A stretch of 64,000 bases of DNA from an uncultured Prevotella sp. (GTDB lineage: Bacteria > Bacteroidota > Bacteroidia > Bacteroidales > Bacteroidaceae): the NCBI GenBank assembly GCA_946548085.1, contig CAMNPN010000011.1, positions 27,481 through 91,480 on the forward strand, written 5' to 3'. The notes under the pieces were generated by a model. It was not told where the DNA came from, ran no database searches, and saw only the letters and a list, made by a program, of their open reading frames with translations. A program made the position numbers and the translations under genes. Shown in pieces: positions 37,852 to 59,000 of this stretch. Position 1 is the first letter of the stretch. The number at the start of each line of letters is the position of its first letter.

Positions 37852-39306
37852 ATGAAGAATGTTAAAGCACTGTTGCTCATGCTGCTGATGGTGGTGATGA
37901 GCATGGGCGTGAAGGCCCAGGAGACCCAAAATGGTCAGGAGTCGCAAGAGGTAAAGGAGCCTCAGGCAGTTCAGAATGCTCAGGAGGCCCCGAAAGTGGT
38001 GGTCACGGGAACGGACGGCTACACAGGTGGCACGATTGTCGTCAACGAAGAGAAGTCGAGCGGACAGACGGTGGTCATCACGGTGACGCCTGCCACCGAC
38101 TATTATATCGCCAAGAAAGACATCGAGGTGATCCCGGCCAGAGACCCCTCGCTGGCAACCCGTACTGAGGGAGAAAGCACGGCACCGGCCATCGACCAGA
38201 AGCCGCTGGCGCTGACGCTGGTGGTCGCTGACGGCGAGGAACAGAAAGACGATGTCGACGACCTCACCGCCCAGCGCGAGTATAGCTTCACCGTGCCCGA
38301 AGGCCTCGGCGCCTGGATCGCGAAGGCCGACTTCCACGAGGTGGACAAGCCCGTCACTTCTGGAAAGATAGACGGCTCGGACGTGAGTTGGGAGGTGACA
38401 GGCGAGGCCGAGAACACGTCGCTGACACTCGACGGTGAGGGCGCCGCCACCCTCGGAGAGACCGCTCCCTGGGAGGCGTTCAAGGATCAGATCGTCTCGC
38501 TGACAGTCGGCGAGGATGTGCAGGATCTGGGCGACGGTCTGCTCGCAGGCCTCGGCAGCCTCAGGACCATCACCCTGAAGGGCTCGAAGATTGTGGGCCT
38601 CGGCCGGAACACCCTCTCGAAGGAGGTGACCGTTGATGTCGCAGGACAACTCTATAATGAATACAAAGCCTCCGACGACTGGGGCCAGGCCACCATCACC
38701 AGCACTGGCGGCACCCAGATGACGGGCGTCGCCTTCGGCACGAACAACGACTACGACACCTTCGTCAGCAGCGAGGCCCTGCAGGTGCCCTCCATGCTGA
38801 CGGCCTACACCGTCACTGGCGTTGACGGCAGCAGGGTGGTGCTCGACGAGGTGAAGGTCATCCCGGCTGGTGTGCCCGTGCTGCTCTTCAGCAAGGGCCT
38901 CGACGACAGTGACTTCATCACCGCCAAGGCCACAGACCAGGACGGCGACATCACCGTGAAGAAACAGACAGGCGGCACCACATACTCGCTCCAGGTGGCC
39001 CCCGAGGGCGGACAGCCGGTCGGATTGGGAGAGGTCTACCTGCTCTACAACGACGTGTTCTACCTCTCTCAGGCTGGCACCATCCCCGCTGGCGGCATCT
39101 ACCTGCAGCCGGCAAAGGAGCAGCTCGTCAAGACCCGTTCGATGCTCGTCATCGACGGCACCGGCACCACGGCCATCGATGCCCCCGTCACATTCGCCTC
39201 TCAGCGCCCTGATGCCTGGTACACCCTCGACGGCCGCCGCCTCAGCGGCAAGCCCTCGCAGAAAGGTGTCTACATCAATGGTGGCGTCAAGGTCGTGATT
39301 AAGTGA
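37852..39306 (+). CDS. Secreted surface protein with one BspA-like LRR segment and short Prevotella-type C-terminal motif
   Basis: 484 aa, signal peptide MKNVKALLLMLLMVVMSMGVKAQ. 'IVSLTVGEDVQDLGDGLLAGLGSLRTITL'. C-terminal 'WYTLDGRRLSGKPSQKGVYINGGVKVVIK'. Confidence 0.75.
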   Translation: MKNVKALLLMLLMVVMSMGVKAQETQNGQESQEVKEPQAVQNAQEAPKVVVTGTDGYTGGTIVVNEEKSSGQTVVITVTPATDYYIAKKDIEVIPARDPSLATRTEGESTAPAIDQKPLALTLVVADGEEQKDDVDDLTAQREYSFTVPEGLGAWIAKADFHEVDKPVTSGKIDGSDVSWEVTGEAENTSLTLDGEGAATLGETAPWEAFKDQIVSLTVGEDVQDLGDGLLAGLGSLRTITLKGSKIVGLGRNTLSKEVTVDVAGQLYNEYKASDDWGQATITSTGGTQMTGVAFGTNNDYDTFVSSEALQVPSMLTAYTVTGVDGSRVVLDEVKVIPAGVPVLLFSKGLDDSDFITAKATDQDGDITVKKQTGGTTYSLQVAPEGGQPVGLGEVYLLYNDVFYLSQAGTIPAGGIYLQPAKEQLVKTRSMLVIDGTGTTAIDAPVTFASQRPDAWYTLDGRRLSGKPSQKGVYINGGVKVVIK

Positions 39307-39370
39307 GAGAAGCGGCAAAGTTCACATTGACGCTGGAACTGTACAGAGAGACATTGACGCAGGATATGAC

Positions 39371-39541
39371 ATGGATACGGACTATGATTTCAAAGGTAAG
39401 GATTTTGGCTATGCAAGAACATTGGACGAACTGGAACTTGCGCTTGATGAGGCAGATTCTGAACGTAGTGATCCGTCTAAATGGGTTACTCCTGTTGAAT
39501 TTCATTCTCGCATAGAAAACAAATATCCATGGCTAAGGTAG
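39371..39541 (+). CDS. Small antitoxin-like protein
   Basis: MDTDYDFKGKDFGYARTLDELELALDEADSERSDPSKWVTPVEFHSRIENKYPWLR*, overlapping the start (39529) of a RelE/ParE-like remnant. Confidence 0.55.
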   Translation: MDTDYDFKGKDFGYARTLDELELALDEADSERSDPSKWVTPVEFHSRIENKYPWLR

Positions 39542-39660
39542 TTTGGCGAGAAAAGGCTTTGCTTCTGCTTGAAGCGCACAAGGTGTCTGACACATTGTGA
39601 GCATATTTGGGACATGCGAATGAATCCTGTAAAATTGAAAAGAATGAAGTTCGATATATG
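39529..39660 (+). pseudogene. RelE/ParE-type toxin remnant with internal out-of-frame deletion
   Basis: N-terminus MAKVVWREKALLLLEAHKVSDTL* followed in another frame by EHIWDMRMNPVKLKRMKFDI*, the usual ends of such a toxin without its middle. Confidence 0.65.
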
Positions 39661-39678
39661 AAGCAAGAATATATGACA
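39658..39678 (+). repeat. 21-bp direct repeat copy 1 (ATGAAGCAAGAATATATGACA)
   Basis: Identical to 40371-40391. Confidence 0.95.
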
Positions 39679-40302
39679 CACGATATACACACCACGCAGC
39701 ACGACGGACCGCAGCAGGGAGAGATTATTCTCTACCAGCCCGACGAGACCGTACGCCTCGAGGTGCGACTGGAGGATGATACCGTCTGGCTGACGCAACA
39801 GCAGATGGCGGAGTTGTTCCAGACAACAAGGAATAATATAACTTTGCATATTGGCAACATTTTCAAAGAAGATGAGTTGGAGGAATCGTCAGTACGTAAG
39901 GAATCCTTACTAACTGCATCCGACGGAAAAAGATATCGCACAAAATTCTACAACTTAGACGTAATTATTTCTGTTGGATATCGTGTGAAATCCCAGCGGG
40001 GCACAAAGTTCCGTCAGTGGGCAAATAAGATAATAAAGGAGTATTTACTTCGAGGATATACCATTAATCTGCAACTACAACAGATGGAACAGCGTATGGA
40101 TGCTCGTCTTGAAGCACACGTACAAAATGAACAGAAACGTTTCAGCCAGATAGAGCAGACATTGGTCAACCAACAGCAGAAGATCGACTTCTTCGTCCGC
40201 ACGAACCAGCCGCCGGTAGAGGGCGTGCTGTTCGAAGGTCAGATATTTGATGCCTTCGAACTGATGGGAATCGACAAGAACGTCATCCTTGGCCAACTAT
40301 AA
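39658..40302 (+). CDS. RhuM-family protein, apparently truncated at the C-terminus
   Basis: 'ILYQPDETVRLEVRLEDDTVWLTQQQMAELFQTTRNNITLHIGNIFKEDELEESSVRKE' is a RhuM signature; ends early at 'GQIFDAFELMGIDKNVILGQL*'. Start may be 39658 or 39673. Confidence 0.75.
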   Translation: MKQEYMTHDIHTTQHDGPQQGEIILYQPDETVRLEVRLEDDTVWLTQQQMAELFQTTRNNITLHIGNIFKEDELEESSVRKESLLTASDGKRYRTKFYNLDVIISVGYRVKSQRGTKFRQWANKIIKEYLLRGYTINLQLQQMEQRMDARLEAHVQNEQKRFSQIEQTLVNQQQKIDFFVRTNQPPVEGVLFEGQIFDAFELMGIDKNVILGQL

Positions 40303-40370
40303 AGGACTACGAATTTTACGAATGAAGATAAGCGACAACGGATTACACGGATTCAACGGATTCAAGACAA

Positions 40371-40391
40371 ATGAAGCAAGAATATATGACA
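40371..40391 (+). repeat. 21-bp direct repeat copy 2 (ATGAAGCAAGAATATATGACA)
   Basis: Identical to 39658-39678; covers the start of the 1872-aa ORF. Confidence 0.95.
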
Positions 40392-43300
40392 ACATACATG
40401 AATAAGACAATGATGAGGTTTTTTGCCATCGCCCTGCTGCTGATGGTCAGCCTGGGCGCTCGGGCAGAAGTAAAAGTATTGTTCGGAGTAAACGGCACGG
40501 AACTGCAGCCTGATAAGGACGGCAAGGTCACCCTCGGCCAGAAAGAACTGACGGGCGGTACTGTCATTATCTCTCAGGAAGACCAGAAAGACGGCACGAC
40601 GAAGTTGTTCCTCGCTGTGACCCCCGACAAAGGCTACAGGCTGGCTGAGAATGGTCTCGAGGTCTATACCGTCGCCCCCGCCGACATCAGTCAAACCCGC
40701 ACCGTGAAAGCCTCTACCAAACTCGATATCAAAAGCGAAGACTTTAAAGACGAAGCCTCGAAGCGCACCTATACCGCCACCATCGACTCCAAGCTTGCCC
40801 TTTGGGTGAAGAGCGCGACTTTCGCTTCAAATGGATCAAAAGGAAACAGAGATGTTACCCATACTTATTATGCTTTACATTGCAACGGTAATGGCTATCT
40901 TCGTGTGAACGGAGAGGCCAGCGTCAGCTTGACTAACCATGCCACTTTCTACTATGGCAATATCTTTAGCAACGACGGCAGTTCGCTATGGGTAATCACA
41001 TCCGACGGTTACCTGAAGAACAACTACTTCTACCTGAACGTGGCCAACAACAGTACGCTGTATCTCTCCATTGACCCCGTTACGCAGTGGACGCTGGAGG
41101 ATATCGATGGTCAGACAAAAAAACACGTAAAGATAAATGACGGCACCAATGACCTGTACCTCTGCTATGACAATAAAACTATCAAACTTGCCACATCACC
41201 GAGCGGCTACTACAATGCTTGCCCAATCACTTTGACCGAGGAGAGCTGGTCTGGCCCGACAACTGCAGACCTCACCCTGCAGTCGCCACAACTCATCACC
41301 TATCTCCGTGGCTACTTCACACAGAAGTTCAACTACAGTTTCGTCAACGATGCTGGCAAAACAGTGTCGGAAAACAACAAGGAGCGGAGAGTCTATGCCA
41401 CCTACAGCTACGTCAGCGGTGGTAGCAATAAGGGTACAGACTGGAATATCACAAACGATGGCATTATCTATAACATGAAGGCCAGCGGCGACGTCGCTGT
41501 TACTGCCACCTACAATGTACTGCCTGCTGACCCAAAAGCACTTGGTTTACACCCCAATCCATCGTCGATGAACAATAGGAAGTTCACCATCCAGCAGAAG
41601 GCATTTACACCGACCGCTGACATGGATTATCTGTTTTTCAGCATCAAGGGCGGCGATGACTATTGCTATCCCTACGATGATGGCATCAGCGAGAACTCCC
41701 CTGTGAAGGCTAACGGCAAGGGTGGAACGGGAAACACCTCAGTGCTCTCAGACCCCCTTAATGATGGCTCTGGTCGTAACCTGGAAATAAGTTGGAAGAT
41801 TACCACCGACGATGCCGGCTTCTGCATGTTCAAGAATACAAGCACTGGGCGCTATCTATATTTCTACGAGCCGAAGAGCACTTCGGAAAGTATTGGCGAG
41901 CTGCGTGTGGGAGCCACTACGTTGCCCACCGACGCTACACTTAGCCAGTATAAGTTCCGACTCTATAAAACCAGCACCACAGACTATAGCACGTGCTACT
42001 TTATTATTCCCTATAGCAAGTTGTTCGCTATTTACAAGAGTGACGGAATAGCCGCTGATCTTTATGCCAGCCTTAACATCACAGACTACAAGACTGACAA
42101 TGTTATACGTCCCTTCAAATCGAACGATAACTCCAAGTGGTGCATATACAAGTACGAGGCAGAATATCGCGTGAGGAACGACTTTACCTTCAGCGGCCCT
42201 GCCAGTACCGATGCTATTGGCAATGTTAAATTCACATCTACCGATGGTTGGTACGGCAAATATATCAAGGAGTCGCCAAAGGAAGGCAACGGCCAGCGAG
42301 GGCTGGTGGTCAGCGGCAGTTACAACACCAACAAAGTCAACTACATCTGGACGGTGATAGGTCTTGACGATTATATCGACCATACGAACTGGACAACAGG
42401 CGACGGTGGTTACGTAAAAACTATTGTAAACAATAAGAATTTCACTTTCAACGTCAGTTCCCTACCGATATCTACTGCCTCTGGTACCGTACAGTTACAG
42501 CTCAGAGGGGGAGAGGAAGATGAGAATTCTGCGACGAAACCCTACAAATGGTCAGAAAAGAAGACGCTGGGCTTTACTATCCTTGGCAATGGCACGGTGG
42601 AGTTCACAGACATTTCCTCTCTGTCGGAAATCACCAGCAGCGGTGGAGCCTATCGACTGACAGCAGATGTGTCGTACACCGCCCCCGGAGTAACAACTTT
42701 TAGTGGTATCCTCGACTGCAACAATAAGACCATCAGCGGCCTTACGGCACCGCTGTTTAATACACTGACCAACGGCACGGTGTGCAACTTAAATATCTCA
42801 GATGCAAATATCAGTCAGGACGGACAGGTGGGTGCTATTGCCTGTGTGGCCAATGGTGGCAGCCGCATATACAACGTGGGTATCCTCAGCGGCAGTGTGA
42901 GTAGCACGTCAACCAGCACTGCTAATAGTTCAGTGGGCTGTTGCGGCGGACTGGTGGGGCTGCTAGACGGCTCTGCCCGCGTCATAAACTGCTTCAGCTA
43001 TGCTAAAATTACGGGTGGCAACCGTGTGGGAGGCATCGTGGGCTATAACAACTTCGAGACCAAATCCAACGATGCACGTACTATGGTGATGAACTGTATG
43101 TTCTATGGCGATATTACTGGTGGATCGTCTAAGGCTCCAATCTATAATGGCAAGATTATAACAAACAGAAGTGATGCTAATGGTGTGAGCAACTTCAATT
43201 ATTTCTGGGCAGGTGCTTCTTATGTTCAAAACAGACATATAGATGTATATAATTGCGCACTGGCAGCTGAGACACGATTCTTGCAACGGTTTGAATTCTT

Positions 43301-45989
43301 CCGCAACATGCTCAACAGTAATCGAGAATTAGCAGCTTGGTGGGCCACAGGCAGTCGCAACAATAAGGATGAAATGATGAAATGGGTGTTGGAACCTTCA
43401 CAGATTGGTAGCAGCACGCCATATCCCATTCTGAAGAAACAGGGTTATTATCCTTCTGTTGTTAACAACAATTCAGCTACTACGTCTTCTGACAATTCTT
43501 CTGCTATTGATTATACGAAGTCTACTGCTCCTGAGACGCCAGAAACCACAAAAACGCTTTCTGTAACTCTTAGTGGCGAAGGTATTACAACGACCTCATT
43601 GACATTGCCTATCACAGACAAAGATCCGAACCACTTTAACTTTAATTACCATAAAGTACAACTGCCTTATTTTAACGATGTAGGAACCGGGAACTACACC
43701 AACAATAAAGTAGTGACCGGCTGGGAGGTATCTGTTTCTGGTGGCACACATGGTTTTTCTGACGATTCTTCTGATGCAAGTGCAAGTGTAAATGAGGCAG
43801 GCGATATTACGCTTACCACCCCATATAACTTCGCAGATCGCAAAAGCACAGAGAAGGATAATTATGCAAATAGTGGGCGTATCTTCAATCAAGGTGCTTA
43901 CTTTGATGTTCCTGAGGGGGTAACATCTATTACGATTAAGCCTCACTGGGCCAAGTGTGTCTATGTCTCCGACGCATACCCTGATGTCGTGTACAATCAG
44001 GGTATGGGTGGAGCTGCTAACGTTACAACCATTGGTGGCGGACAACGCTTTGAAAACGACAAAAAGTATAATCTTGTTACTTGTACTCGTGATGACCAAA
44101 ATGGCCAGGTTGTTTACACTTCCATGGGTAATGCAGTAAATGCATTGGCCCCTTCTGGCACCGTTTACGATAATGCTATTGTGCTTGTGGGCAATGTTCA
44201 TAGTACCAGTGTTTCTTCTACTGAAAGTAATAAGCCATTTACCATCATGTCTATTGACTTAGATAAGGACAACGAACCTGACTATTCGTATATTTTGCGT
44301 TTTGATAGCCGTGTTCGCTTACACCCTGTCAGGGTTGACTTCATAAATATTATAGGTCTTGGTATGGCACAGAAGTCGAATGGTGGTACTGGTACTTATA
44401 ATTTTGGTATTCTGCAGCCACTCGGTTGGTTTGAGTCAACCAACACATCCCTTTTCCGATTCACGCAGTTCGAGTATGATAAAAAGGATAGGGTGGAAAG
44501 TCCAATGATTTTGCAGGGCGGTGTGATTGAACAATGGGTGACTGTTGGAGGAACTGAAACAACTCATAAAGAAGGAAAAACGGTAACCTACTATCACGTT
44601 GGAGGCAATGTGTGGTTCAAGGAATTTCATATTGGCGTCCATCAGGATAAAACGCAGGATGAGTTTGTCAGTCCCCATCCCCCCATTTCGGTAACAGGTG
44701 GCGACTTTAACGAGTTCTATCTGACAGGTTTATATAACACCCCCAATGCCAATTATGATGACAATGCAGAATGCTACATCAATGGCGGTCACTTCGGCAA
44801 GGTGGCAGGAACGGGTATGCAGGGTATTGGCACAATTGGTGGCGGAGGTAAGGGTAATATTATTTGGCAGATAGACAATGCCGATATCGATGAGTTTTAT
44901 GCTGGTGGAACCAATGCCGCCCATATCGCTGAGGGAGACATCTTTACCGTCATCTCTAATAGTCGTGTAGACCAGTTCTGTGGTGGTCCCAAGTTTGGCA
45001 ACATGAATAGTGATAAGAAAGTGGTTACAAATGCCACCAATTGCACTTTCCGCACCTTCTTTGGTGCCGGCTATGGTGGTAATTCATATAACCGTAGATA
45101 TCCTGCAAATCAGAATAGTAAAATTAATATCGACTGGAACGACTGGGTTTCCAAACAATACACAAAGAAATATGACGCTGCATACAATGGTGTAGAAACA
45201 CGAATTGATTATCAGTTCCTGCCAATGTCTGGCAATACTACTAACGTATGCCGCCTGTTTGTTGATTATGTCAGCTTCTCGCTGGCCACCACATATGATG
45301 TCACATCAAAACTCACTGGTTGCACCATTGCTAAAAGTCCGCTTGGAAGTCTCGATCTTTTCGAAGGATGTATTGGTAACTTCTATGGTGGCGGTAGTCT
45401 TGGCAAAGTAGATGGTAATGTAAAGTCGACACTCACGAATTGTAAAGTAGAAGGTAGTGCATTTGGTGCAGGCTACTCTGCAACACTTCCTACTGTTGCT
45501 GTGATGAATAATAGTTTCCAAACAGAGCCTTACTACGATGGAAACCTCGGAGCCTATTTGGATGCGGTACTCCCTACCACATTGCCCTATACTTGGGAAC
45601 AAGCCAGCACTGTCAATTCTACAGAAACGGCAATTAATACAGGCACACAAAAACTCTTTACCACCGTAAATCTGAGCAAGTCCAACCTTGGCTCGGTGAA
45701 TGGCAATGTCACCCTCACCATCGATGGCAGCAGCGATAAAGGTTCTACAGTCTCTGGCAACGTCTTCGGCGGCGGTGAATCGAGCTATGTCACAGGTACT
45801 GACCACAAAGTCACTGTCACATTAGCGGGAAAAACCCAAGTACTAGGTAATGTCTATGGTGGCGGCGATAAGGGCCTCGTAGAAGGCAGCACAGAGGTGA
45901 ATATTCTGAAGGAACTACCGACTTCCGGTAGTGGTAGTAGCTCAGGAGAAGGCACAGGTGAGGGTTCCGGCAGTGGCTCTGGTAATTAA
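40371..45989 (+). CDS. Giant (1872 aa) secreted surface protein with GLUG-like and V[YF]GGG repeats
   Basis: Signal peptide (MNKTMMRFFAIALLLMVSLGARAE). GLUG-like 'VGCCGGLVGLLDGSARVINCFSYAKITGGNRVGGIVGYN'. C-terminal 'VSGNVFGGGES', 'VLGNVYGGGDKG' then GSGSSSGEGTGEGSGSGSGN. Confidence 0.8.
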   Translation: MKQEYMTTYMNKTMMRFFAIALLLMVSLGARAEVKVLFGVNGTELQPDKDGKVTLGQKELTGGTVIISQEDQKDGTTKLFLAVTPDKGYRLAENGLEVYTVAPADISQTRTVKASTKLDIKSEDFKDEASKRTYTATIDSKLALWVKSATFASNGSKGNRDVTHTYYALHCNGNGYLRVNGEASVSLTNHATFYYGNIFSNDGSSLWVITSDGYLKNNYFYLNVANNSTLYLSIDPVTQWTLEDIDGQTKKHVKINDGTNDLYLCYDNKTIKLATSPSGYYNACPITLTEESWSGPTTADLTLQSPQLITYLRGYFTQKFNYSFVNDAGKTVSENNKERRVYATYSYVSGGSNKGTDWNITNDGIIYNMKASGDVAVTATYNVLPADPKALGLHPNPSSMNNRKFTIQQKAFTPTADMDYLFFSIKGGDDYCYPYDDGISENSPVKANGKGGTGNTSVLSDPLNDGSGRNLEISWKITTDDAGFCMFKNTSTGRYLYFYEPKSTSESIGELRVGATTLPTDATLSQYKFRLYKTSTTDYSTCYFIIPYSKLFAIYKSDGIAADLYASLNITDYKTDNVIRPFKSNDNSKWCIYKYEAEYRVRNDFTFSGPASTDAIGNVKFTSTDGWYGKYIKESPKEGNGQRGLVVSGSYNTNKVNYIWTVIGLDDYIDHTNWTTGDGGYVKTIVNNKNFTFNVSSLPISTASGTVQLQLRGGEEDENSATKPYKWSEKKTLGFTILGNGTVEFTDISSLSEITSSGGAYRLTADVSYTAPGVTTFSGILDCNNKTISGLTAPLFNTLTNGTVCNLNISDANISQDGQVGAIACVANGGSRIYNVGILSGSVSSTSTSTANSSVGCCGGLVGLLDGSARVINCFSYAKITGGNRVGGIVGYNNFETKSNDARTMVMNCMFYGDITGGSSKAPIYNGKIITNRSDANGVSNFNYFWAGASYVQNRHIDVYNCALAAETRFLQRFEFFRNMLNSNRELAAWWATGSRNNKDEMMKWVLEPSQIGSSTPYPILKKQGYYPSVVNNNSATTSSDNSSAIDYTKSTAPETPETTKTLSVTLSGEGITTTSLTLPITDKDPNHFNFNYHKVQLPYFNDVGTGNYTNNKVVTGWEVSVSGGTHGFSDDSSDASASVNEAGDITLTTPYNFADRKSTEKDNYANSGRIFNQGAYFDVPEGVTSITIKPHWAKCVYVSDAYPDVVYNQGMGGAANVTTIGGGQRFENDKKYNLVTCTRDDQNGQVVYTSMGNAVNALAPSGTVYDNAIVLVGNVHSTSVSSTESNKPFTIMSIDLDKDNEPDYSYILRFDSRVRLHPVRVDFINIIGLGMAQKSNGGTGTYNFGILQPLGWFESTNTSLFRFTQFEYDKKDRVESPMILQGGVIEQWVTVGGTETTHKEGKTVTYYHVGGNVWFKEFHIGVHQDKTQDEFVSPHPPISVTGGDFNEFYLTGLYNTPNANYDDNAECYINGGHFGKVAGTGMQGIGTIGGGGKGNIIWQIDNADIDEFYAGGTNAAHIAEGDIFTVISNSRVDQFCGGPKFGNMNSDKKVVTNATNCTFRTFFGAGYGGNSYNRRYPANQNSKINIDWNDWVSKQYTKKYDAAYNGVETRIDYQFLPMSGNTTNVCRLFVDYVSFSLATTYDVTSKLTGCTIAKSPLGSLDLFEGCIGNFYGGGSLGKVDGNVKSTLTNCKVEGSAFGAGYSATLPTVAVMNNSFQTEPYYDGNLGAYLDAVLPTTLPYTWEQASTVNSTETAINTGTQKLFTTVNLSKSNLGSVNGNVTLTIDGSSDKGSTVSGNVFGGGESSYVTGTDHKVTVTLAGKTQVLGNVYGGGDKGLVEGSTEVNILKELPTSGSGSSSGEGTGEGSGSGSGN

Positions 45990-46016: not shown

Positions 46017-46054
46017 TAAGACGGAAGACGGAATAAAGAATAAGATCAAGATAT
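46017..46054 (+). repeat. 38-nt direct repeat copy 1 (TAAGACGGAAGACGGAATAARGAATAAGAWCAAGATA)
   Basis: Matches 47043-47080 with 2-3 differences; extends into the first DUF3791 start. Confidence 0.9.
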
Positions 46055-46310
46055 GGCAAAGAGTGAATCAATGAAGAATGTTATTGAAATATCAAAGACG
46101 CAGGTAATAATGGCCTTTGTGGCTACATGCATTGAGGCTACGGCACGTTTGCTGAACACATCTTATAAAGAAGTGTATCAGCGAATGAAGCATGTAGGAC
46201 TGATAGAACACTATATCATTCCTCACTATGAAACTCTTCATAGCGAAAGTCGTGAGAATATTGCAAAGGACATTGCTGAGTGCCTAACAGAATGGGAGGG
46301 CAGGAGATGA
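46053..46310 (+). CDS. DUF3791-like small protein (first copy)
   Basis: 85 aa 'VIEISKTQVIMAFVATCIEATARLLNTSYKEVYQRMKHVGLIEHYIIPHYETLHSES'. Stop overlaps the next ATG (ATGA). Confidence 0.65.
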   Translation: MAKSESMKNVIEISKTQVIMAFVATCIEATARLLNTSYKEVYQRMKHVGLIEHYIIPHYETLHSESRENIAKDIAECLTEWEGRR

Positions 46311-46798
46311 AGGAGATAATCGTCTATCATGGGGGAACGGAAATCGTTGAGCATCCGAACTGCAAGGCGGGCCGCCGTAATCTGGACTTTGGCCAAGGCT
46401 TTTATGTGACCAATATTTCTCAGCAAGCTATAAGTTGGGCTCGTCTGGTGGCCGATAAAAGAGGTAAAGATCCTGTTCTAAACCGATACCGTCTGAATCG
46501 CGAGGGAATTCTGGCCGAGGGTCGCTGTAAGGTATTTGAGGCATACGATAAAGACTGGTTGGAGTTCATCGTGGTCAGTCGTCGTGGGCTGGATGTGGCC
46601 AGTAATTATGATTATATTGAAGGCGGCGTGGCAAACGACCGCGTGGTTGATACTGTCAACCTCTATATGGCAGGACTGATGGAAGAGGAAACGGCCTTGC
46701 GTCGTTTGTCAGAACATCGGCCGAACAATCAGATGTGCTTCCTGTCTCAGGAATTAACTGATAAATATCTCATTTTCGATGGAACAGACGATATCTAA
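46307..46798 (+). CDS. DUF3990-like putative ADP-ribosyltransferase
   Basis: MKEIIVYHGGTEIVEHPNCKAGRRNLDFGQGFYVTNISQQAISWA...NNQMCFLSQELTDKYLIF. YHGG and GQGFYVT resemble the H and Y motifs of H-Y-[EQ] ADP-ribosyltransferases. Confidence 0.75.
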   Translation: MKEIIVYHGGTEIVEHPNCKAGRRNLDFGQGFYVTNISQQAISWARLVADKRGKDPVLNRYRLNREGILAEGRCKVFEAYDKDWLEFIVVSRRGLDVASNYDYIEGGVANDRVVDTVNLYMAGLMEEETALRRLSEHRPNNQMCFLSQELTDKYLIFDGTDDI

Positions 46799-47045
46799 CG
46801 ATCCGGTTAAGTCACCTGTCATACAGGAGATTATTATGAGCAATCGCATAGGGGCCATCTCTGTGGAGTTAGCGAAACGCTTGGACATAGAGCCTGTAAA
46901 GGCTTTACAGATGTTCTATGAGAGCCAAACATGTGCCGATCTACACGACAAGTCCACAGGGCTTTACCTCTATGGTGATCTCTATATCGTAGATGAATTT
47001 TTGTTGGAAAATGAACATAAAGGGGAAAATTCCTCTGTAGTATAA
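46779..47045 (+). CDS. DUF3791-like small protein (second copy)
   Basis: 88 aa 'ISVELAKRLDIEPVKALQMFYESQTCADLHDKSTGLYLYGDLYIVDEFLLE'; overlaps the DUF3990-like gene by 20 nt. Confidence 0.7.
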   Translation: MEQTISNDPVKSPVIQEIIMSNRIGAISVELAKRLDIEPVKALQMFYESQTCADLHDKSTGLYLYGDLYIVDEFLLENEHKGENSSVV

Positions 47046-47080
47046 GACGGAAGACGGAATAAGGAATAAGAACAAGATAA
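47043..47080 (+). repeat. 38-nt direct repeat copy 2
   Basis: Matches 46017-46054; lies directly before and at the start of the 4588-aa ORF. Confidence 0.9.
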
Positions 47081-50000
47081 TGACACAAGATATGAACCAT
47101 ACATTAGGGAAAGCCCTTCGGGCAGTGTTCGTGGCAGCGATGATGTCGCTGACGGGTAGTCATGCTTTGGCAGAAGATACGCAGTCAAGTACTGGTACAG
47201 GTGTCCATGTCATGGGTAATGTCTTTGGCGGCGGTAATCTGGCCGAGGTAAAGGGAAGAGTGACCGTGAACATCAAGGCGGGTACTGTTGTGAATGATGT
47301 CTATGGCGGCGGTGCAAAGGCTAACACCAATTCGTCTATTTATACCATTACACAAGAAGACGGAAAGGACGTCTATCCCACGACAGTCAATCTGACTGGC
47401 GGAACCATTGGTAATGCCTATGGTGGTGGTCTTGGTGAGAAAGCGGGTGTCAATGGCGGCACTGAAGATAAGGAAGCCCTTGTGTATGGTGACGTGTTGG
47501 TGAATGTGAACGGCACGGCATTTACTCAGGAGTTCGATACATATCAAGAAGGGACGGGTGAAGCAACTACAACTGTACAGGTTCCGAAGACTGGTCGTGT
47601 GTTTGGTTGTAATAACCTAAACGGCTCTCCACTGAAGACTGTTACTGTTCATGTTCATAAGACTGTTCGCCTTGATGGTGGAGTTCATAAAGCTGGCGAG
47701 TATGAGATAGCAGCTGTCTATGGCGGTGGTAACGAGGCTGCCTACGAACCGACAATATCAGGAGAGGAGACGGCAGAAAATTACGTCCATACCAATGTTA
47801 TTATCGATGGATGTGATCTTACCAGTATCAAACAAGTCTATGGCGGTGGTAACGCCGCATCGACGCCATCCACCCAGGTCACGATTAACGGCGCATTCGA
47901 AATCGATGAGGTCTTTGGCGGCGGTAATGGTAACGACAAGATTAAGAGAACAAGCGGATCTGACGTCAGTTGGCTGATTAATCCTGGTGCTAATGTGGGG
48001 TTCGAAGCCTATGATGCTGATTCTGAAGATTATGACACCCCAGAAGAGCGAGAGACAATGGCTTATGGCTTTGGCAAGGCTCAGGTGAACATTGGTGGTG
48101 GTAACATACATGCAGTCTATGGTGGTAGTAACGCCAAGGGAAATGTGCGTATGGTGGCTGTGGCGATGCTTGAAAAGACTTCCGAGGAGGACTGTTTCAC
48201 TGTTGATGAGGCATATGGTGGTGGTAAGGCTGCTCCTATGGACGGACGGGCCGAGCTGCAGTTAGGCTGTATTCCTGGAGTTGGTACAGTCTATGGCGGT
48301 GCCCGGGCTGCTACTGTAAACAATAATGTGGTTCTGACGATAACAAATGGTACCTTTAACAAAGTATTTGGTGGCAATAATGAAGCCGGCAGTATTAATG
48401 GTACAATCACTTTAAATATCGAGGAAACCGGGTGTACACCAATTGTTATTGGCCAACTTTATGGAGGTGGTAATCTGGCAGCCTATACGGCACCAACAGG
48501 AGAGAATGGCCCCACCCTCAACATAAAATCGTTTACAAGTATCGGTGAAGTTTATGGTGGCGGTTATTCTGCAGATGTGACAGGAAACGTTCATGTAAAC
48601 ATCAATGAGGTTGTAGGTGAACAGGCTGCAACTGTTAACGGCTATCCTAAAGATGCCCAGAATCAGGATATTACTTCTTTAGATGGTGTGGCGATACCTA
48701 CTCATACGAAGGATGCCATTGGTGCCATTCGCGTTGTCTATGGCGGTGGCTACGGTGCTGACGTGATAGGTGATGTTGAAGTCAATATCGGTACTGCTAA
48801 AACCATTGATTATGTATCAATGGTATCAGGTGAAACAGAACCAAGAACTGGTATTACCGTAGGAGGTGCCAATATAACCAACAGCGTCTATGGTGGCGGC
48901 TTTGGTGCGGCAACGACGGTGACGGGAAACGTTGTGGTAAATGTTGGTGGTCAGAAGACTGAAGGAACTACGACAACATTTATCGGTGGTGATATAGCTA
49001 TTGGCGGCAGTGTCTATGGCGGTAGTGCATTGGGAGCAGTGAATGCTACAAAGAGCGGTACAACGCTCAGCCTTACTGAAGGAAAGACAACAGCTGTTAC
49101 ACTTTGTAAGGGTAACGTAACAGGTGCTGTGTTCGGTGGTGGTCAGGGCAATTCAAACACAACGGCACACGTCTATGGTAAGTCTACGGTGACATTGTAT
49201 GGTGATGTGGTTGCTGGTGGCCTATATGGTGGTTGTGATGCCAATGGCGAGATGCATGATGGTGCAGAACTAAACCTCTTTGGTGGTACTGTCGGAACCA
49301 CCTTGGGTGATACGGATCCAATTCCCAATATGGTGTTTGGCGGTGGTCTCGGTCAGGCGACAAGAGTTGATGGCAATGTGACCGTAAATGTTGGCTCTAA
49401 GGACTATACAGGCAATACGTCTGTTACCATTTGGGGTAATGTGTATGGTGGTGGTGCCTTAGGTGATGTAAATACCCCCAAGAATACCAGTGACGCAACA
49501 ACATATACCACCTTGGTGAATCTCTTTAAGGGAACTGTTAATGGTAATGTGTTCGGAGGTGGTCTTGGACAGGCAGCTAAAGCTGCTGTCGGCACAGAGG
49601 GACAACCTGGCTATGAGCCTGCTATCCCAGCAATAGGTGCAGCAGTGAATGGTAATATCAGAGTTGACCTGAATGGATATGAGGGTATCGATATTAATGA
49701 TGAATCAGCGTTTGGTTCTTGTGTTGTGGTTGGTAGGATCTTTGGCTGTAACAATACCATGGGATCACCAGGTGGTAATGCTGAGGTGCATATCTATAAG
49801 ACCGTTGGCACAGGATCTAATGTACGCTCACCTGGGAAAACAAATACGACATACGATCTCGCTGCTGTATTTGGTGGCGGTAATAGGGCTGCATATTCAA
49901 CATCGGGAAAGACTGCCAAGGTGTTTATCGAGACCTGTAATGTAAGTATTAAAGAGGTATATGGTGGCGGTTATGGTGCTGATGTGCCTGCTACCAATGT

Positions 50001-53000
50001 GGAAGTAAATGGTGCTTATGAGATTGGTACAGTATTCGGTGGTGGTTATGGCGCAGGAAGTGATGATCCTGCGGCTGCTGACTACAATCCAGGTGCGAAT
50101 GTCAATGGAATCACGACAGTACTTCTTGAAGGTGGTACTATTCATGAGGCATACGGTGGCAGTAATACAAAGGGTGATGTAACAGGCGGTACAAATGTAA
50201 ACGTCAGTGACAATGGCAATACTAGCTGTCCTTTGAAAGTAGAGCAGATCTATGGTGGAGGAAAGAATGCCCAAATGACGGGCGGAACCAATATTATATT
50301 GGGTTGTCAGCCTGATGATTGGATTAAGGAAATTTATGCCGGTGCTCAGGCTGCTGATGTCGGCGGAAGTGTTGGTCTCACGATTACCAGCGGTAAGTTT
50401 GAGCGTGTGTTCGGAGGTAATAAGACCAGTGGTAAGATAAAGGGATCCATCACAGTGAACATTGAGGAGACAGGAACTTGTGCTACACCTATTATTATAG
50501 GTGAACTCTATGGTGGTGGTTACCAGGCTGGGTACTCGATTTATGGATATAATAATGATAACACTCCCAGAACAAAGGCACAATATGACACATGGTATGC
50601 TGGATTGTCAGATGAAGAAAAGGCAAAACCAGAGAATAAACCTTATAGCAATCCTCAATTGAATGTCCGTTCATTCACCAGTATCGGAGCCATCTATGGC
50701 GGTGGTTATGAGGCTCTTATGGTTGCAGATCCTACAGTTAGTATTAATGTGGTGAAAGGAAGCCATGCGGATGATAATGACTTAGCGGCTGGTAGTACCC
50801 AACCCAACAGCCTGCCTTATCCTGCTCATAAAAAAGGTGCTATCGGCACTATCGGCAATGTGTTCGGTGGTGGTAATTTGGCTACAGTTGATGGTAGTGC
50901 GACTGTTAATATTGGTACTGAAGAAACGGTGAAGTTGACGTCTATAGTTGATGATCCCAATACTACTGATGTTGATGAAAGTCTGCCAACTGTCGAAGGT
51001 GCCAATATCACTGGCAATGTATATGGTGGCGGTAATTTGGCCGATGTCACGGGTAGTACAGAGGTGAATATCTGTGCCAAAGAGGTTACCAGCGGTACTA
51101 CAACATCATGGCAAAGCGTTACCCCAGGTACTGCAGGCGTTGCCATCGCTGGTAATGTGTACGGTGGTGGTAAGGGTGAAGCAAGAGAAAGTGGTGATCG
51201 TGCATTCTATTGCGAGGAAGCAATGGTCGGCATAAATGATACGAATAGCGAAACAAATAATGATGACCCTGATTATGCTAATTATGGAACGCATGTCCGT
51301 ATTGGTAATGGTTCGGTGAATGGTTCTGTCTATGGCGGCGGTGAGATTGGCCGAGTGGAATTCCACACAGAAGTTGTCATTGGATTAGGAGCAGGAACAG
51401 GAGGAACCACCAAATCGCCTGTTATCAATGGTAGTGTGTTCGGTGCCGGTAAGGGTACGAATACTCATGGCTACTCAGGTCTTGTTCGTGGTGACAGTAG
51501 GGTTACTGTTCAGGCCGATGCCAAGATCGGACAAAGTGTCTATGGCGGCGGCGAGATGGCTTCAGTGGGTAAATATGAAGTTGTTGATGGATTACCGAAG
51601 AATCCACTATGGGGTGGAAAGTGTACTGTCACTATCCAAGGCTATGCAGAAATCGGACCAAACAACATGCAGATGGTTACTGAAAGTGGAAAGCCCGATG
51701 ACTCAGGTCACGTCTTTGGTGCGGGTAAGGGCATTCTGCCTTATGAAGGAGTTACAGGTACTCCTTGGAGTATGCAAACAGGTGGTAAGGTGACTTATGA
51801 TAATACCTATGTACCGGGAACGGATGGACTTAATTATGAAGCCGCTTACCTAAAGTTTATTCGGTCTCTGGGCTTAGCCTCCAACACAAATGTGATTATT
51901 GATGGAAATGCCTTCGTCAAGGGTTCTGTATATGGTGGTAGTGAGAACGGTTATGTACAGGCCAATACGCATGTGACTATTGCGGGTGGTCAGGTTGGTA
52001 ATGGTGATGGCGTAAATAAACCTTATACTACTGAAGAATGGGCTTATGACGGATCTGATGATAGTCATTCTCTGAAAGAATGTGCACACTGGCCGTTTGA
52101 ATCACCTTATAAACCTTATGATATATATGATTATCAGACAGGTACTACAAAACCAAATCCTGCTTCCGACGGTCATACTTTCTATGGCAACGTATTCGGC
52201 GGTGGTAGAGGCTACTACCCGTATGATGAAGGACCGGAGTTATCACAAGATCAAATTAACTTGGGATATTCTAAGGGCCTATGGCTTCGTGCGGCTGGTT
52301 CTGTAGGAGGTAACACCGTGGTGGATATCACGGGTGGACATATTCTGACCAGCGTCTATGGAGGTAACGAGCAGACCGATGTGACAGGCAGTTGTACCAT
52401 CAATATGGTTGGCGGTACTGTAGGTGTGCCTCGAACTGTGGATCAGGCAAAGGCTCATCCCGTCACTTGTTATGTCTTTGGTGCAGGTAAGGGTGACCAG
52501 CGTATCAACTTCAACACTTGGACGAATGTTGCCAGCACACAGGTCAATATCTCTGGTAATGCCCGTATCTATGGATCTACCTTCGGTGGTGGTGAGGATG
52601 GTCACGTCTTAGGTAATGTCGAAACGAACATCGGTGGCACCGTAAAAATCGACCTCAACGGCGATGGCGATACATCCGACGAGAGTGAGGCGTTCACAGC
52701 CCAAAACGGCCTGATAATTGGTACTACGGGAACCTCTGGAGTAGATGGAAATATCTTCGGCGGTGGCCGTGGTTTCAGTGAGACGGCCCTGACTGCTGGT
52801 GTGGTTGGCGGTAATGTGGATGTCAATATCTACAACGGTACCATTCTCGGAACTGTCTTTGGTGGCGGACGACTGGCATCTGTAGGAACGTTCTTTGCTG
52901 ATGCCACTGATAAAGATAAATATGGTAAGATGCAGGGTGACTTAACAGACTTGAATCATGGCGTCATCAGAATCAATATCTCGGGTGGTACTATTGGCGC

Positions 53001-56000
53001 TACGGCAAGTGATGGTAAGTTGGCAACATCCGATTATACTATCGGTGATGTGTTCGGCGGCTCTAAAGGAAGTACGAGAAACGACCTGCAATTCGGTCTG
53101 GCTAAACAAACCTTTATCACCATGACGGGTGGTAAGGTGAAAGGTAGCGTCTATGGCGGTGGAGAGGTAGCCGTCGTAGAGGGCAATGCTACGATTGCGA
53201 TTAGTGGCGGAGAGGTAGGTGACGGTGTGACAGCAAAAGGCGGAGCCAAGATAGGAAATGTCTTTGGTGGTGGTAAAGGTAATACGACTGTAGCCGATGC
53301 CGGACTAATCAAGGGAAATACCAAGGTGACGGTCAATCCTGGCTCTAACGGTGAGCCGAAGATATACCATAATATATATGGTGGTGGTGCCTACGGTTCG
53401 GTGGGTACCATCACATACGGTGATGCAACTTATGTTCCTAATCAGACTGCTGCGGTTTCAAAGATGCCGACTGCTTGGGAACGAGCAGCCGATGGAACTA
53501 CTCAAGCGAATACCGGTACAGCCGAGGTTTATGTCTATGGTGGTACAATCGGTACTAATGGTGATGAAAACGGCATGGTGTTTGGATCGTCACGAGGCGA
53601 TGTGGGTACGCCAGGTACAGATGGAGTCGATCCTAATGACCATCTGGCATGGGTTCATAATACGAAGGTTGTGATTGGCGGTGAAGGCATGAGCCCTATT
53701 GTCTATGGTTCTGTCTATGGTAGTGGTGAAAATGGACACGTATTTTATAATACTCAGGTTGATATTCATAATGGTACTATTGGTGTCACAGCCGATGATT
53801 CTTTTGGCGGCCCCAATTACCGTCTGCGCGGTAATGTCTACGGTGGAGGTTGCGGTGAGGATACCTATCCGGGTACAACGGGTACAACGAAAGAGAATTT
53901 CAACCCATTGGCAGGAATCGTGCTTGGTACTACAAATGTCACGATTGATGGTGGACAAGTTGTACACAATGTCTATGGCGCCGGTGCCTTAGGTTCGGCT
54001 ACCAATACCTCGGTTACTATTGCTGGTAATGCCATCGTTGGTGTCTCAGGTAAAAATGGTGGTAATGTCTTTGGTGCAGCCCGTGGTAAGGAAGGCATCA
54101 CTATTGTAGGCTCTAACCTGGCAAACTCCATTGCGACTGCAGTGAAGATCAATGGTGGTCAGATCTGGGGTAGTGTATATGGCGGCGGTGAAACTGGTAA
54201 TGTCAAGCAAGACGTGAATGTTTCTATGACAGGCGGTGCCGTAGCCAAGGATGTCTATGGTGGTGGCGCCCTGGCACATACGCAGACCGCTAACTGGGAT
54301 TTGACTACCAGTACCTGGGCAGAAGGCAAGACCTCTGCCAGTAGCACAACTATCGTCAGCCTGCTTGGCGGAACCATTAATGGCGATGCCTACGGTGGTG
54401 GTCTGGGCAGGAAGGCAGTAGCAGCCAAAGGTACTAATCCTGCTGTTACTGCCGTTGAGGCCATGGTGTATGGCGACGTGTTGGTGGAACTGAACAACAA
54501 CAATGATGGCGGTGAGGCTGATGAAAGTAAGAAGGGCTGTGTCGTCAATCGCGTCTTCGGCTGTAACAACCTGAACGGCACGCCGAAGGGAAAGGTCAAG
54601 GTGTTTGTGTATGCCACACAAAAGAGCGGAGAACAAACTCTTGCTGATAAAGCGGAACTGAATACAGGAACCTACGATGTTCAGGCTGTCTATGGCGGTG
54701 GTAACTTAGCTGAATTTATACCGGCTGATGCCCTGTTAGACTATGCAACCAACCAGGCAAAGGTGGATGCTGCCTATCCAGAGGTGGTGGTTGACGGCTG
54801 TAGGCTGACCAGTATTAAATATGTGTATGGTGGAGGTAATGCGGCTCCTGTTCCTGCCTCATCCGTGGAAATCAGACGTGCCTACGAGATCTATGAGGTG
54901 TTCGGCGGCGGTAATGGCGCTGACGACTATTCCCTGGAAGAGCATGGAGAAACCGTCTGGTATAAGAATCCCGGTGCAAACGTGGGCTATTATACCTATG
55001 CAACCTATCCTAAGGGAGATGGTCAGGGAGCAGGAACACAGGCCGACCCCTACAAAGCAGTTGAGAATGCCCTCTATGCAGGAGGTGAAGAGAATAAAGA
55101 GGCGAGATTAGCCGCTGCTGACATACAATACGGTTCGGGTATCGCAAAGTTGGAGGTCAAGGGTGGATACATCCACGTCTCCTACGGCGGCAGTAACTCG
55201 TTAGGTAATGTCAGGGCGAAGCTCTCGTCACGCTATTCTGCTGCGTTTGATGATTGCGACATGCAAGTGGAGCAGTCTTACGGTGGTGGAAAGAACGCAT
55301 GGAGCGATGCCGAGACCGACATGCTGGCAGACTGTGCCAAGGGTGTCAAGGAGATGTTCGGCGGTGCCAGGGATGCTGATGTCAATGGCGACATCAACCT
55401 GAGAATCACCAACGGCTCGTCGTTGGAGCGCGTGTTCGGCGGAAACAACACCAGTGGTGCTGTCAATGGCTCGATTACCATCACCATCGAGGAGGGTGGC
55501 TGCGAACCAATCCGTATCGGCGAACTGTATGCCGGTGGCTTCCTGGCACCTTACTCGGTCTATGGATATGAAAAGAACGAGGATGGCTCTTACAAGACAG
55601 CCGACGTGGAATATATTGATACAGACGGTCAGACAAAGACTCATACGCAGCGTATCCCACTCAAGAAAGGCGATGAAGGCGCACTGGCAACACCTCACAA
55701 GGATCCACGTATCAATGTGATTTCTGCCACCTATATAGGCAATATCTTCGGTGGCGGCTATCAGGCCAAGCTTGTGGGTAGTCCGCACATCAATGTCAAC
55801 ATGGAGCCGGGCAAGATTCTCGCTCACTATGTGAAGGATACGGAAGAAGACCCGTTTGTCGGTGAACACAAGGATGCTGATAATAACGTCGTCTATGTCG
55901 GTAAGGGAATTGCTGAGAATGGTGACGGTATCCTTGAAACTGGAACTATCGGCAATATCTACGGCGGCGGTAATATGGCCGATATCGTTGGTGACACGTA

Positions 56001-59000
56001 TGTTGAGATTGGTACTGGCAAATGGGTAAATCTGGTAAAGGATAATGATGGAGATTACAGGGAGGTTGAAGAAACGTTAACCCGTAATGCTGCCACGATT
56101 ACCGGCAATGTGTTCGGCGGTGGTAAGGGTAAGGCTGATTCGTTCAAGTGCGCGAAAGCAATGGTTGGAGTTGAAGACAGTGGCTCCGGCAGTACGAATG
56201 TCATCATCGGTAACGGTACAGTGGAAGGTTCTGTCTATGGCGGCGGTGAGATTGGCCGTGTGGAAGCGAATACGAACGTAACGATAGGACTCGAGGATGG
56301 AACAGGTGAACCCGTTATCAAGGGTAATGTGTTCGGAGCTGGCAGGGGCGTACATACACATGGCTATGCGGCTTTGGTACGTGGCAACAGTACTGTCACT
56401 GTCCAGGGTAAGACCAAAGTTGGCGGCAGTGTCTATGGTGGCGGCCAGATTGCGACGGTAGGCAAATATAAAATTGAGCATGATTTACCTTCTGAGACGA
56501 CAGGAGGTGGATTATGTACCGTCACCGTCCAAGACAAAGCTGAAATTACAGGTAATGTCTTTGGTGCCGGTCAGGGTATCACGCCTGCTTATAATCAAGC
56601 TGACTATAAGAATTTCAAGAGCATGGTGAACGCTGTAAATAAACCAAGTGGGGACGAAAAAGATACTTGGGATTATTATGTCGATGAATACGGTCAGAAA
56701 GACGAAAGTCTCGTCTGGAAATATTATAAGACAGAGGCAGATTACCTGAAGTTCCTCCAGACGTTGGCCTTAGCCAGCAATACCGTTGTGACCATCGACG
56801 GAAGTGCTCAGGTCAAGAAGAACGTCTATGGCGGTAGCGAGAGTGGCTTCGTGCAGAATCATACTCAAGTAAATACTCAGGGCAGCAGTGTGATTGGAAC
56901 GCAGACAATCTCAGGCGACGATGTCACGTACTCAGATGGTAATATCTTCGGTGGCGGAAAAGGTCTTGCTACTTTTGCCGAAGCCGGACTCGTGAAGGGA
57001 ACCACCACACTCAATATTACCGATGGTACCATATACGGTAATGTCTATGGTGGCGGTGAGTTAGGTGCAGTCGGTAAATACACTGTTTCTGATGACATGA
57101 GGACGTTTACTTGGGGCAATCCGTATAACAATACGGGTGTTTGTAATGTCACGATTGCTGGTGGTACGATTGGGTCTGGTGTTGCGATGAGTGATGATGG
57201 CACTTATGCTAACGGTAATGTGTTCGGTGCTGGTAAGGGCCTTCAGGATACTTTCTGGTGTGAGAAAGCCATTGTGTACAAAGCGAATGTCAATATCAAT
57301 GCAGGTAGGGTGAAAGGTAATGTATATGGCGGCGGCGAGGTTGGACGTGTGGAGACTGATGCTGAGGTGAAGATAGGCCCCGATTCAGGAACATCCACAC
57401 CCGTTGTCGAAGGCAGCGTGTTCGGTGGAGGAGCCGGCGTCAAGACACATGGCTACTCTGCGCTGGTTCGCGGCAACACGTATGTTACCGTTCAGAGTTC
57501 AGCCCAGGTAGGACATAACGTCTATGGTGGCGGTCAGATTGCAGCAGTGGGCAAGTATTATCTTGTAACTGATGACAATCAGACTGAGCACCCAGGATTG
57601 TCGGTAGGAATGCCATATTCTCTGGTAGATGACGGTTTGGGAATATGTTATGTCACCATTAAGGGCGATGCCGAGATTACAGGTAGCATCTTCGGTGGCG
57701 GTAAAGGAAAGGTGCCTGAGAATCTGGATTATACCAAACCTCAAGGCGCAGCAGCCTCTGATTATCATACTACTTCCTACGATATTGATGCTCACATGCC
57801 TAAACGCATGATGAACGATTATGCAAGAAAGAATACTTACTGGGAATACTTTGGTCCTTCTACGAATAACATTATATGGGAGTATTTCGACACAGAGGAC
57901 AAATACCTGACATTCCTTGAGACACTGGGATTGACCACACAGTCTGTCGTGGCAGTCGAGGGAGGCCAAGTTAATGGCAATGTCTATGGCGGTAGTGAGA
58001 GTGGTTTCGTTCAGCACAATACCTCTGTCACGATAGCAGGTGGCGAGATTGGTACGGAATCTGCCGGTGGCAACGTCTTTGGCGGCGGTCTTGGCCTTGC
58101 GACATTTGCTGAAGCCGGACGGGTAAGAGGAAACACCACTGTCAACGTCAATGCTGGCACGGTGAAAGGTAACGTCTATGGCGGCGGTCAGCTGGGTGAT
58201 GTAGGTACCATTGTCAAGAACGCCGATTACAATTATAAATGGACCGACGAGGCTAATCCTGGCGAAACTTACAATTGGAACAACACCGGCGTTTGTAATG
58301 TGACTGTCAAAGGCGGTACGATAGGTACCGGTGTTGAGCCAGGTGACGACGGTACATACGCTAACGGTAATGTGTTTGGAGCAGGTAAGGGCCTTGAAGA
58401 TACCTGGTGGTGTGAGAAAGCCATTGCATACAAGACGAATGTCACCATCACCGACGGCACAATCAATGGTACCGTCTACGGCGGTGGTCAGGTAGGTCGT
58501 GTGGAAAAAGATGCGACGGTGACGATAGGGACAGCAAATGAAACTGGGACTGGAAGCAAGCCCAATATCATTGGCAACGTCTTCGGTGCCGGTGCAGGTA
58601 TCAAGACACATGGCTACTCGGCACTGGTGCGTGGCGACACTTATGTCACCGTTCAGGGCATAGCACAGGTCGGACATAGTGTCTATGGCGGTGGCGAGAT
58701 AGCCTCGGTGGGACGGTTCACTGTCGTTGGTGGACTGCCGAAACATCCAGATAGCGGTGGAACTTGTACCGTCACGATCCAAGACCATGCTAAGATTGGA
58801 GCCGATGGTACGGGGCATAACGTCTTTGGTGCCTGCAAGGGTGTCAATCCTGCGCATATCGTAACTGCTGATCGTAAGAGTATGCAACTTCTTTCAAACG
58901 CACCAGAGAATGAAGAATTGTGGGATCATTATAACAATGATGAGACGTCTCCATTCATTTGGAGATATTATCCAGATGAGACTGATTACCTTGACTTCCT

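Follow-up and report, generated by a model that had tools for sequence, protein, structure and literature searches.

Gene-end repeats around small defence-type cassettes in Prevotella and other Bacteroidales point to insertion with duplication of the target

Related systems and the cargo of the cassettes

Insertion accompanied by a long duplication of the target has been described for restriction-modification genes of Helicobacter, where the duplications measure about 100 bp (PMC1643837, PMC3031569, PMC3874152, citing Nobusato et al., 2000 and Furuta et al., 2010). As these papers describe it, that system shares with the loci reported here gene-sized inserts free of a recombinase, long direct repeats of variable length that are copies of the local target, an empty site in a relative, and selfish or defence-type cargo. 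It differs in that the cargo there is restriction-modification genes, whereas here it comprises RhuM, DUF3791-DUF3990, Abi, ParE- and PIN-type toxin-antitoxin (TA) and DUF1016 genes; and in that the present cases lie in Bacteroidales, include arrays built on the start of one gene, and are compared between species, not strains. A second precedent is the PeSL promoter/stem-loop module, to which gene shuffling in T4-like phages has been attributed (Arbiol, 2010 and Comeau, 2014, in PMC4503421). There, exchangeable genes are flanked by expression modules whose repetition provides homology, and one locus of the present collection (L162) likewise carries a hairpin-plus-promoter repeat; here, however, the modules are chromosomal, are the host's own gene ends, are specific to their locus and include coding sequence. 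Integron arrays offer a third comparison, since genome G096 holds a run of unrelated, co-directed cassettes with related elements between them, but those elements are giant-gene starts with a promoter and not, as far as seen, of the attC type. By analogy, the pattern described below appears to work like insertion with long target duplication, with a different cargo. Our search found no literature on the same pattern for RhuM or DUF3990, or in Bacteroides, subscription journals lying mostly outside its reach.

Part of this cargo matches defence systems or candidates for such systems in PADLOC. Intact relatives of the RhuM protein match PDC-S05 (1e-118), a type from which the RhuM of the present locus departs in lacking the phospholipase D (PLD)-like region; a defence role is a candidate label. 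The DUF3990 gene matches PDC-M13B (6.5e-47), DUF3791-DUF3990 together constituting the candidate defence system PDC-M13, and the Abi protein matches PD-T4-5/AbiD; NCBIfam returned nothing useful for the cassette proteins. In rumen genomes, PDC-M13 and PDC-S05 both rank with the most frequent candidate defence systems (PMC13356809).

Two cassettes in front of two giant genes

The window, by which we mean the whole 64-kb stretch of Prevotella DNA that was analysed, contains the sequence ATGAAGCAAGAATATATGACA at 39658-39678 and again at 40371-40391, exactly 713 bp apart (all window features given here are on the forward strand). With its flanks this 21-bp direct repeat grows to 26 bp at 92% identity, the left copy spanning 39653-39678 and the right copy 40366-40391. 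Allowing up to 3 mismatches, these are the only two matches in the window, where 0 are expected, and the only two in the 3.23-Mb assembly; a chance origin of the pair was rejected on these counts. The right copy lies at the start of a gene for a giant secreted protein of 1872 aa (40371-45989; open reading frame, signal peptide recognised by eye, match to Peptidase_M26_N), and the left copy, a duplicate of that gene start by repeat comparison, begins the RhuM gene (39658-40302). The upstream neighbour (37852-39306; 484 aa) is 34% identical (E 3e-64) to the gene that precedes an empty site in genome G112 (L076). The sequence TTGACGCAGGATATGACATGG at 39354-39374 may represent the start motif a third time, in degenerate form; this is weak, with matches to related starts at 14-15 of 21 positions and a null probability of 0.001-0.07 depending on the template.

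With 76.8 bits against PF13310, for which the curated cut-off is 33.7, the RhuM protein belongs to its family. Alignment to intact relatives places an in-frame internal deletion in its C-terminal PLD-like region: about 87 residues, including the HDRFLILD motif, are missing from the window copy, which picks up again at the last 11 residues. It is thus not of the PLD-bearing RhuM type, the HDRFLILD region being present in L033 and its relatives. The structure model of an intact relative (pLDDT 62 overall, approximately 75-89 across most of the C-terminal part) suggests that this part resembles the PLD-type domains of TrmBL2, F13, PLD3 and NucT. A second RhuM gene, at L033:13090-13935, has likewise lost an internal piece of the PLD-like region, but not the same piece, indicating repeated loss of this domain.

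Remnants of a ParE-like TA cassette precede the RhuM gene (39368-39661) and retain 76-88% identity to intact genes of the G096 array. The antitoxin remnant (39368-39538) has lost its 5' part and matches the antitoxin of that array at 77% identity across 57 aa; the toxin remnant (39529-39661), recovered by tblastn with the corresponding toxin, consists of the first 17 and last 21 residues in different frames, the middle having been deleted, and its stop overlaps the RhuM ATG. Within the decayed ParE gene, at 39573-39604, lies a GTGTCTGACACATTGTGA-like sequence, a small dispersed repeat also found on contigs C72, C22 and C31 of the same genome and in front of a truncated KilA-N gene in G013 (L034), and possibly tied to deletions.

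The second giant gene (47080-60846; an open reading frame of 4588 aa) is preceded by a comparable arrangement. A 37-nt repeat (score 31) at 46017-46053 is followed by a DUF3791 gene (46053-46310; PF12668, 9e-19; PDC-M13A), a DUF3990 gene (46292-46798; PF13151, 2.6e-42; PDC-M13B) and a small open reading frame that matched no family (46785-47045), the stop of which overlaps the right copy of the repeat (47043-47079; 37 nt), directly 5' of the giant gene. In five other genomes (G074, G222, G145, G107 and G162) the region homologous to 40371-60846 is a single open frame of roughly 7900-8350 codons, which in the window is two genes with the cassette lying in between; the cassette may mark the point of a split or of a fusion.

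An earlier note on this DNA, made from the sequence alone, had described the 21-bp identity and its 713-bp spacing, the truncation of the bracketed RhuM-like gene and a parallel repeat before the other giant gene, and on each of these counts it agrees with the present analysis, the repeat of the second cassette measuring 37 bp. It had also pointed to a likeness between the start of the 4588-aa gene (ATGACACAAGATATGAAC) and an internal start of the RhuM gene (ATGACACACGATATACAC). The likeness is present, but carries little weight alone because it reflects a recurrent start motif (MTQDMN/MTHDM) of the giant-gene family.

Recurrence at giant-gene starts and at other gene ends

A search of 200 genomes of the genus recovered homologues of the 1872-aa gene in 48, and several of these homologues carry cassettes bracketed by copies of their own starts. 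The G032 orthologue has a RhuM gene in front of it within a different, exact 29-bp repeat that is that gene's own start, and the next giant gene of the same genome is preceded by another RhuM gene with a repeat of 15-18 bp. Start repeats of 45 bp surround a cassette in G034, of 70 bp a DUF1016 gene in G105, and of 50 bp a DUF3791-DUF3990 pair in G220; in G140 there are three start copies with RhuM and Abi genes between them, the repeats measuring 76 and 122 bp. Across 53 giant-gene starts, nine had both cassette and repeat, five a cassette only, one a repeat only and 38 neither (p=4e-6), such that a bracketing repeat accompanies 9 of the 14 starts preceded by a defence or TA cassette vs 1 of the 39 others. 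As the cassette queries were taken partly from repeat-bearing loci, the 9:5 ratio may be too favourable, an effect that does not extend to the 1:38 ratio. Cassettes without repeats, which the earlier note had listed as evidence against its reading, thus make up 5 of the 14, the smaller part; AAA-ATPase/PDDEXK genes account for three of these five, and age could explain the absence of a repeat. The comparison with orthologous empty sites, which it had also proposed, came out in its favour: in other species, sites without a cassette carry no repeat. In G112, for example, the homologue of the upstream neighbour is followed by 113 bp and then the giant gene, with neither cassette nor repeat, vs a gap of 1065 bp in the window.

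The most elaborate case is contig C14 of G096 (38000-62683), where a run of about ten cassettes separates two giant genes, namely RhuM, Abi, ParE-type TA, PIN-type TA, three DUF1016-like genes, two RhuM genes and Abi. Nearly every cassette follows a copy of the giant-gene start, several copies reaching through the signal-peptide codons, and most start copies are followed by an 86-bp promoter-like block that is 80-90% conserved before unrelated genes. This block, running from TATTTGGTCGTTTCGG to TAATTTTGC, fronts unrelated TA, DUF1016 and RhuM genes (L075:1-6400; L164, G096:C14). The first RhuM gene of the array is bracketed by a 130-bp copy of the 3' end of the preceding giant gene.

Gene ends of quite different kinds are used as well. 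At the 3' end of comM, a DUF3791-DUF3990 pair lies between exact 44-bp copies in G152 and a RhuM gene between 57-bp copies in G253, while G023, G033 and G195 carry longer, more diverged copies downstream. The cassettes that have entered this conserved gene are not the same in all species. Downstream of RhuM in L239 (G023) and L240 (G033), the copied comM 3' ends remain open for more than 100 codons although they are detached from the gene. Elsewhere, the comM loci examined show just one comM end, with neither cassette nor long repeat, save L198, with a 13-bp match at chance level, and G096, with a RhuM gene but no repeat. At the start of cobB in G188, a RhuM gene lies between near-exact 101-bp copies of the promoter and first codons, an arrangement absent from all 29 other cobB loci, which have one copy each and lack RhuM. 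For comM, cobB and giant-gene sites alike, the empty site with a single copy is found in related genomes, by comparison across species. As comM 3' ends and cobB are also used, the pattern is a property of cassette insertion and not of giant genes or starts, and a process specific to giant genes was rejected. The earlier note's placing of cassettes between copies of a giant gene's start accordingly holds repeatedly, with varied cassettes and repeats, but is too narrow in leaving out 3' ends and the cobB promoter and start.

The frequency of such repeats was assessed at RhuM and DUF3990 loci drawn from the genus by family search, with context ignored, at a repeat score of at least 18. Flanking repeats were found at 12 of 53 loci vs 0 of 55 core-gene loci (p=9.6e-5); among mismatched pairs the count was 5 of 424. 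The enrichment is one over core genes and mismatched pairs. Among single- or few-contig genomes the counts were 5 of 20 loci vs 0 of 200 mismatched pairs, and draft assembly is therefore not the cause. RhuM loci from other families of the order gave 9 of 25 vs 0 of 150. Top-scoring DUF1016 loci showed the signature in just 1 of 24 cases, and the claim is consequently restricted to the families tested. Most RhuM loci are without a flanking repeat, which may reflect decay or another route; the scoring was ungapped, so that old repeats are missed.

Origin of the repeats and significance

Insertion events at these sites are well supported by the empty sites of other species, every comparison being between species and not between strains of one species. 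We consider it probable that the repeat copies arose when the end of the target gene was duplicated upon insertion of a defence-type cassette, and that this has happened many times in the genus and the order. In the window, RhuM would have been inserted at the start of the giant 1872-aa gene; RhuM would now draw its start region from the left copy, and the giant gene would retain its own start unbroken in the right one. More generally, the insert would be one gene or a small operon, the duplication would take in a long stretch of the local gene end, variable in length (about 15 to about 400 bp), and starts, promoters and 3' ends would all be entered, with the roles of the copies reversed at 3' ends. 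Once repeats exist, homologous recombination at shared gene ends may spread cassettes, stack them, as in the G096 array, or remove them. Candidate sources of the first duplication are repair of a staggered break, or template switching during replication with capture of DNA.

Duplication in place and crossover with homologous donor DNA are the two leading routes. In the latter, which would offer an alternative source of the first copy pair, a circle or linear DNA bearing a relative's gene end would be taken up by a single RecA-type crossover, one copy being the donor's and nothing being duplicated in place; we regard this as a serious if somewhat less than even prospect. The two comM tails in G152 encode similar ends by different codons, ERAL and stop in the left copy and ERGV and stop in the right, as if one were foreign; the copies in G023 and G033 differ by 20-30%, some longer repeats there being about 70-75% identical, and may stem from different species because they are so diverged; and the units of the G096 array amount to exchangeable start modules. 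Short repeats of 17-44 bp, by contrast, fall under the length at which homologous recombination is usually efficient, a nearest-relative comparison of left and right copies singled out neither as the donor's, and how a cassette first gained a given gene end is left unexplained by this route.

Ordinary transposition or site-specific integration, with the repeats as transposase target duplications or attL/attR sites, would account for direct repeats at the ends of the insert and for the repeated use of the comM 3' end, but is very unlikely. The repeats vary in length between 15 and about 400 bp, with a different sequence at each target, and a fixed-length transposon duplication was rejected for this variation in length. 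Further, in the bracketed segments shown in detail the right copy begins approximately -23 to +70 bp from the cassette stop, so that neither a recombinase nor terminal repeats would fit, and these cassettes hold defence-type genes alone, transposase and integrase being absent; the inserts in G023 and G033 contain extra genes, none of them recombinase-like in the annotation as judged by eye. Still more doubtful is the derivation of left copies from decayed tandem giant genes, as stumps whose lost body was replaced by another gene: left copies in G096 and G140 do include a signal-peptide stretch and then a stop, but single-copy housekeeping targets such as comM and cobB, and repeats of 3' ends, would go unexplained. 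That the repeats are leader or ribosome-binding sequences of neighbouring genes kept alike by selection deserves scarcely any credence, since, though the shortest (15-18 bp, AAGAATAAGAACAAG) look like a common leader, exact repeats of 29, 37 and 44 bp, a near-exact one of 101 bp and repeats of 3' coding ends do not fit, and shuffled pairs reached the loosest cut-off in only 8 of 424 cases.

Beyond duplication of the target gene end upon insertion, a bolder and distinctly speculative proposal, which we think improbable as it stands, is that Bacteroidales possess a recombinase-independent mobility of single defence genes, in which the end of a conserved gene would be the landing site duplicated on entry, integron-like stacking could occur at any expressed gene, and RhuM, which when intact carries a PLD-nuclease-like domain, might help to make the breaks. 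The pattern itself bears on how small defence genes that ride no visible mobile element are spread: of the RhuM loci tested, between one quarter and one third bear a direct mark of insertion in which the target gene is preserved. Flanking repeats of gene ends are an easily scored genomic sign by which new mobile defence cassettes can be found, and the repeat-flanked loci constitute a set in which the mechanism of insertion can be tested.
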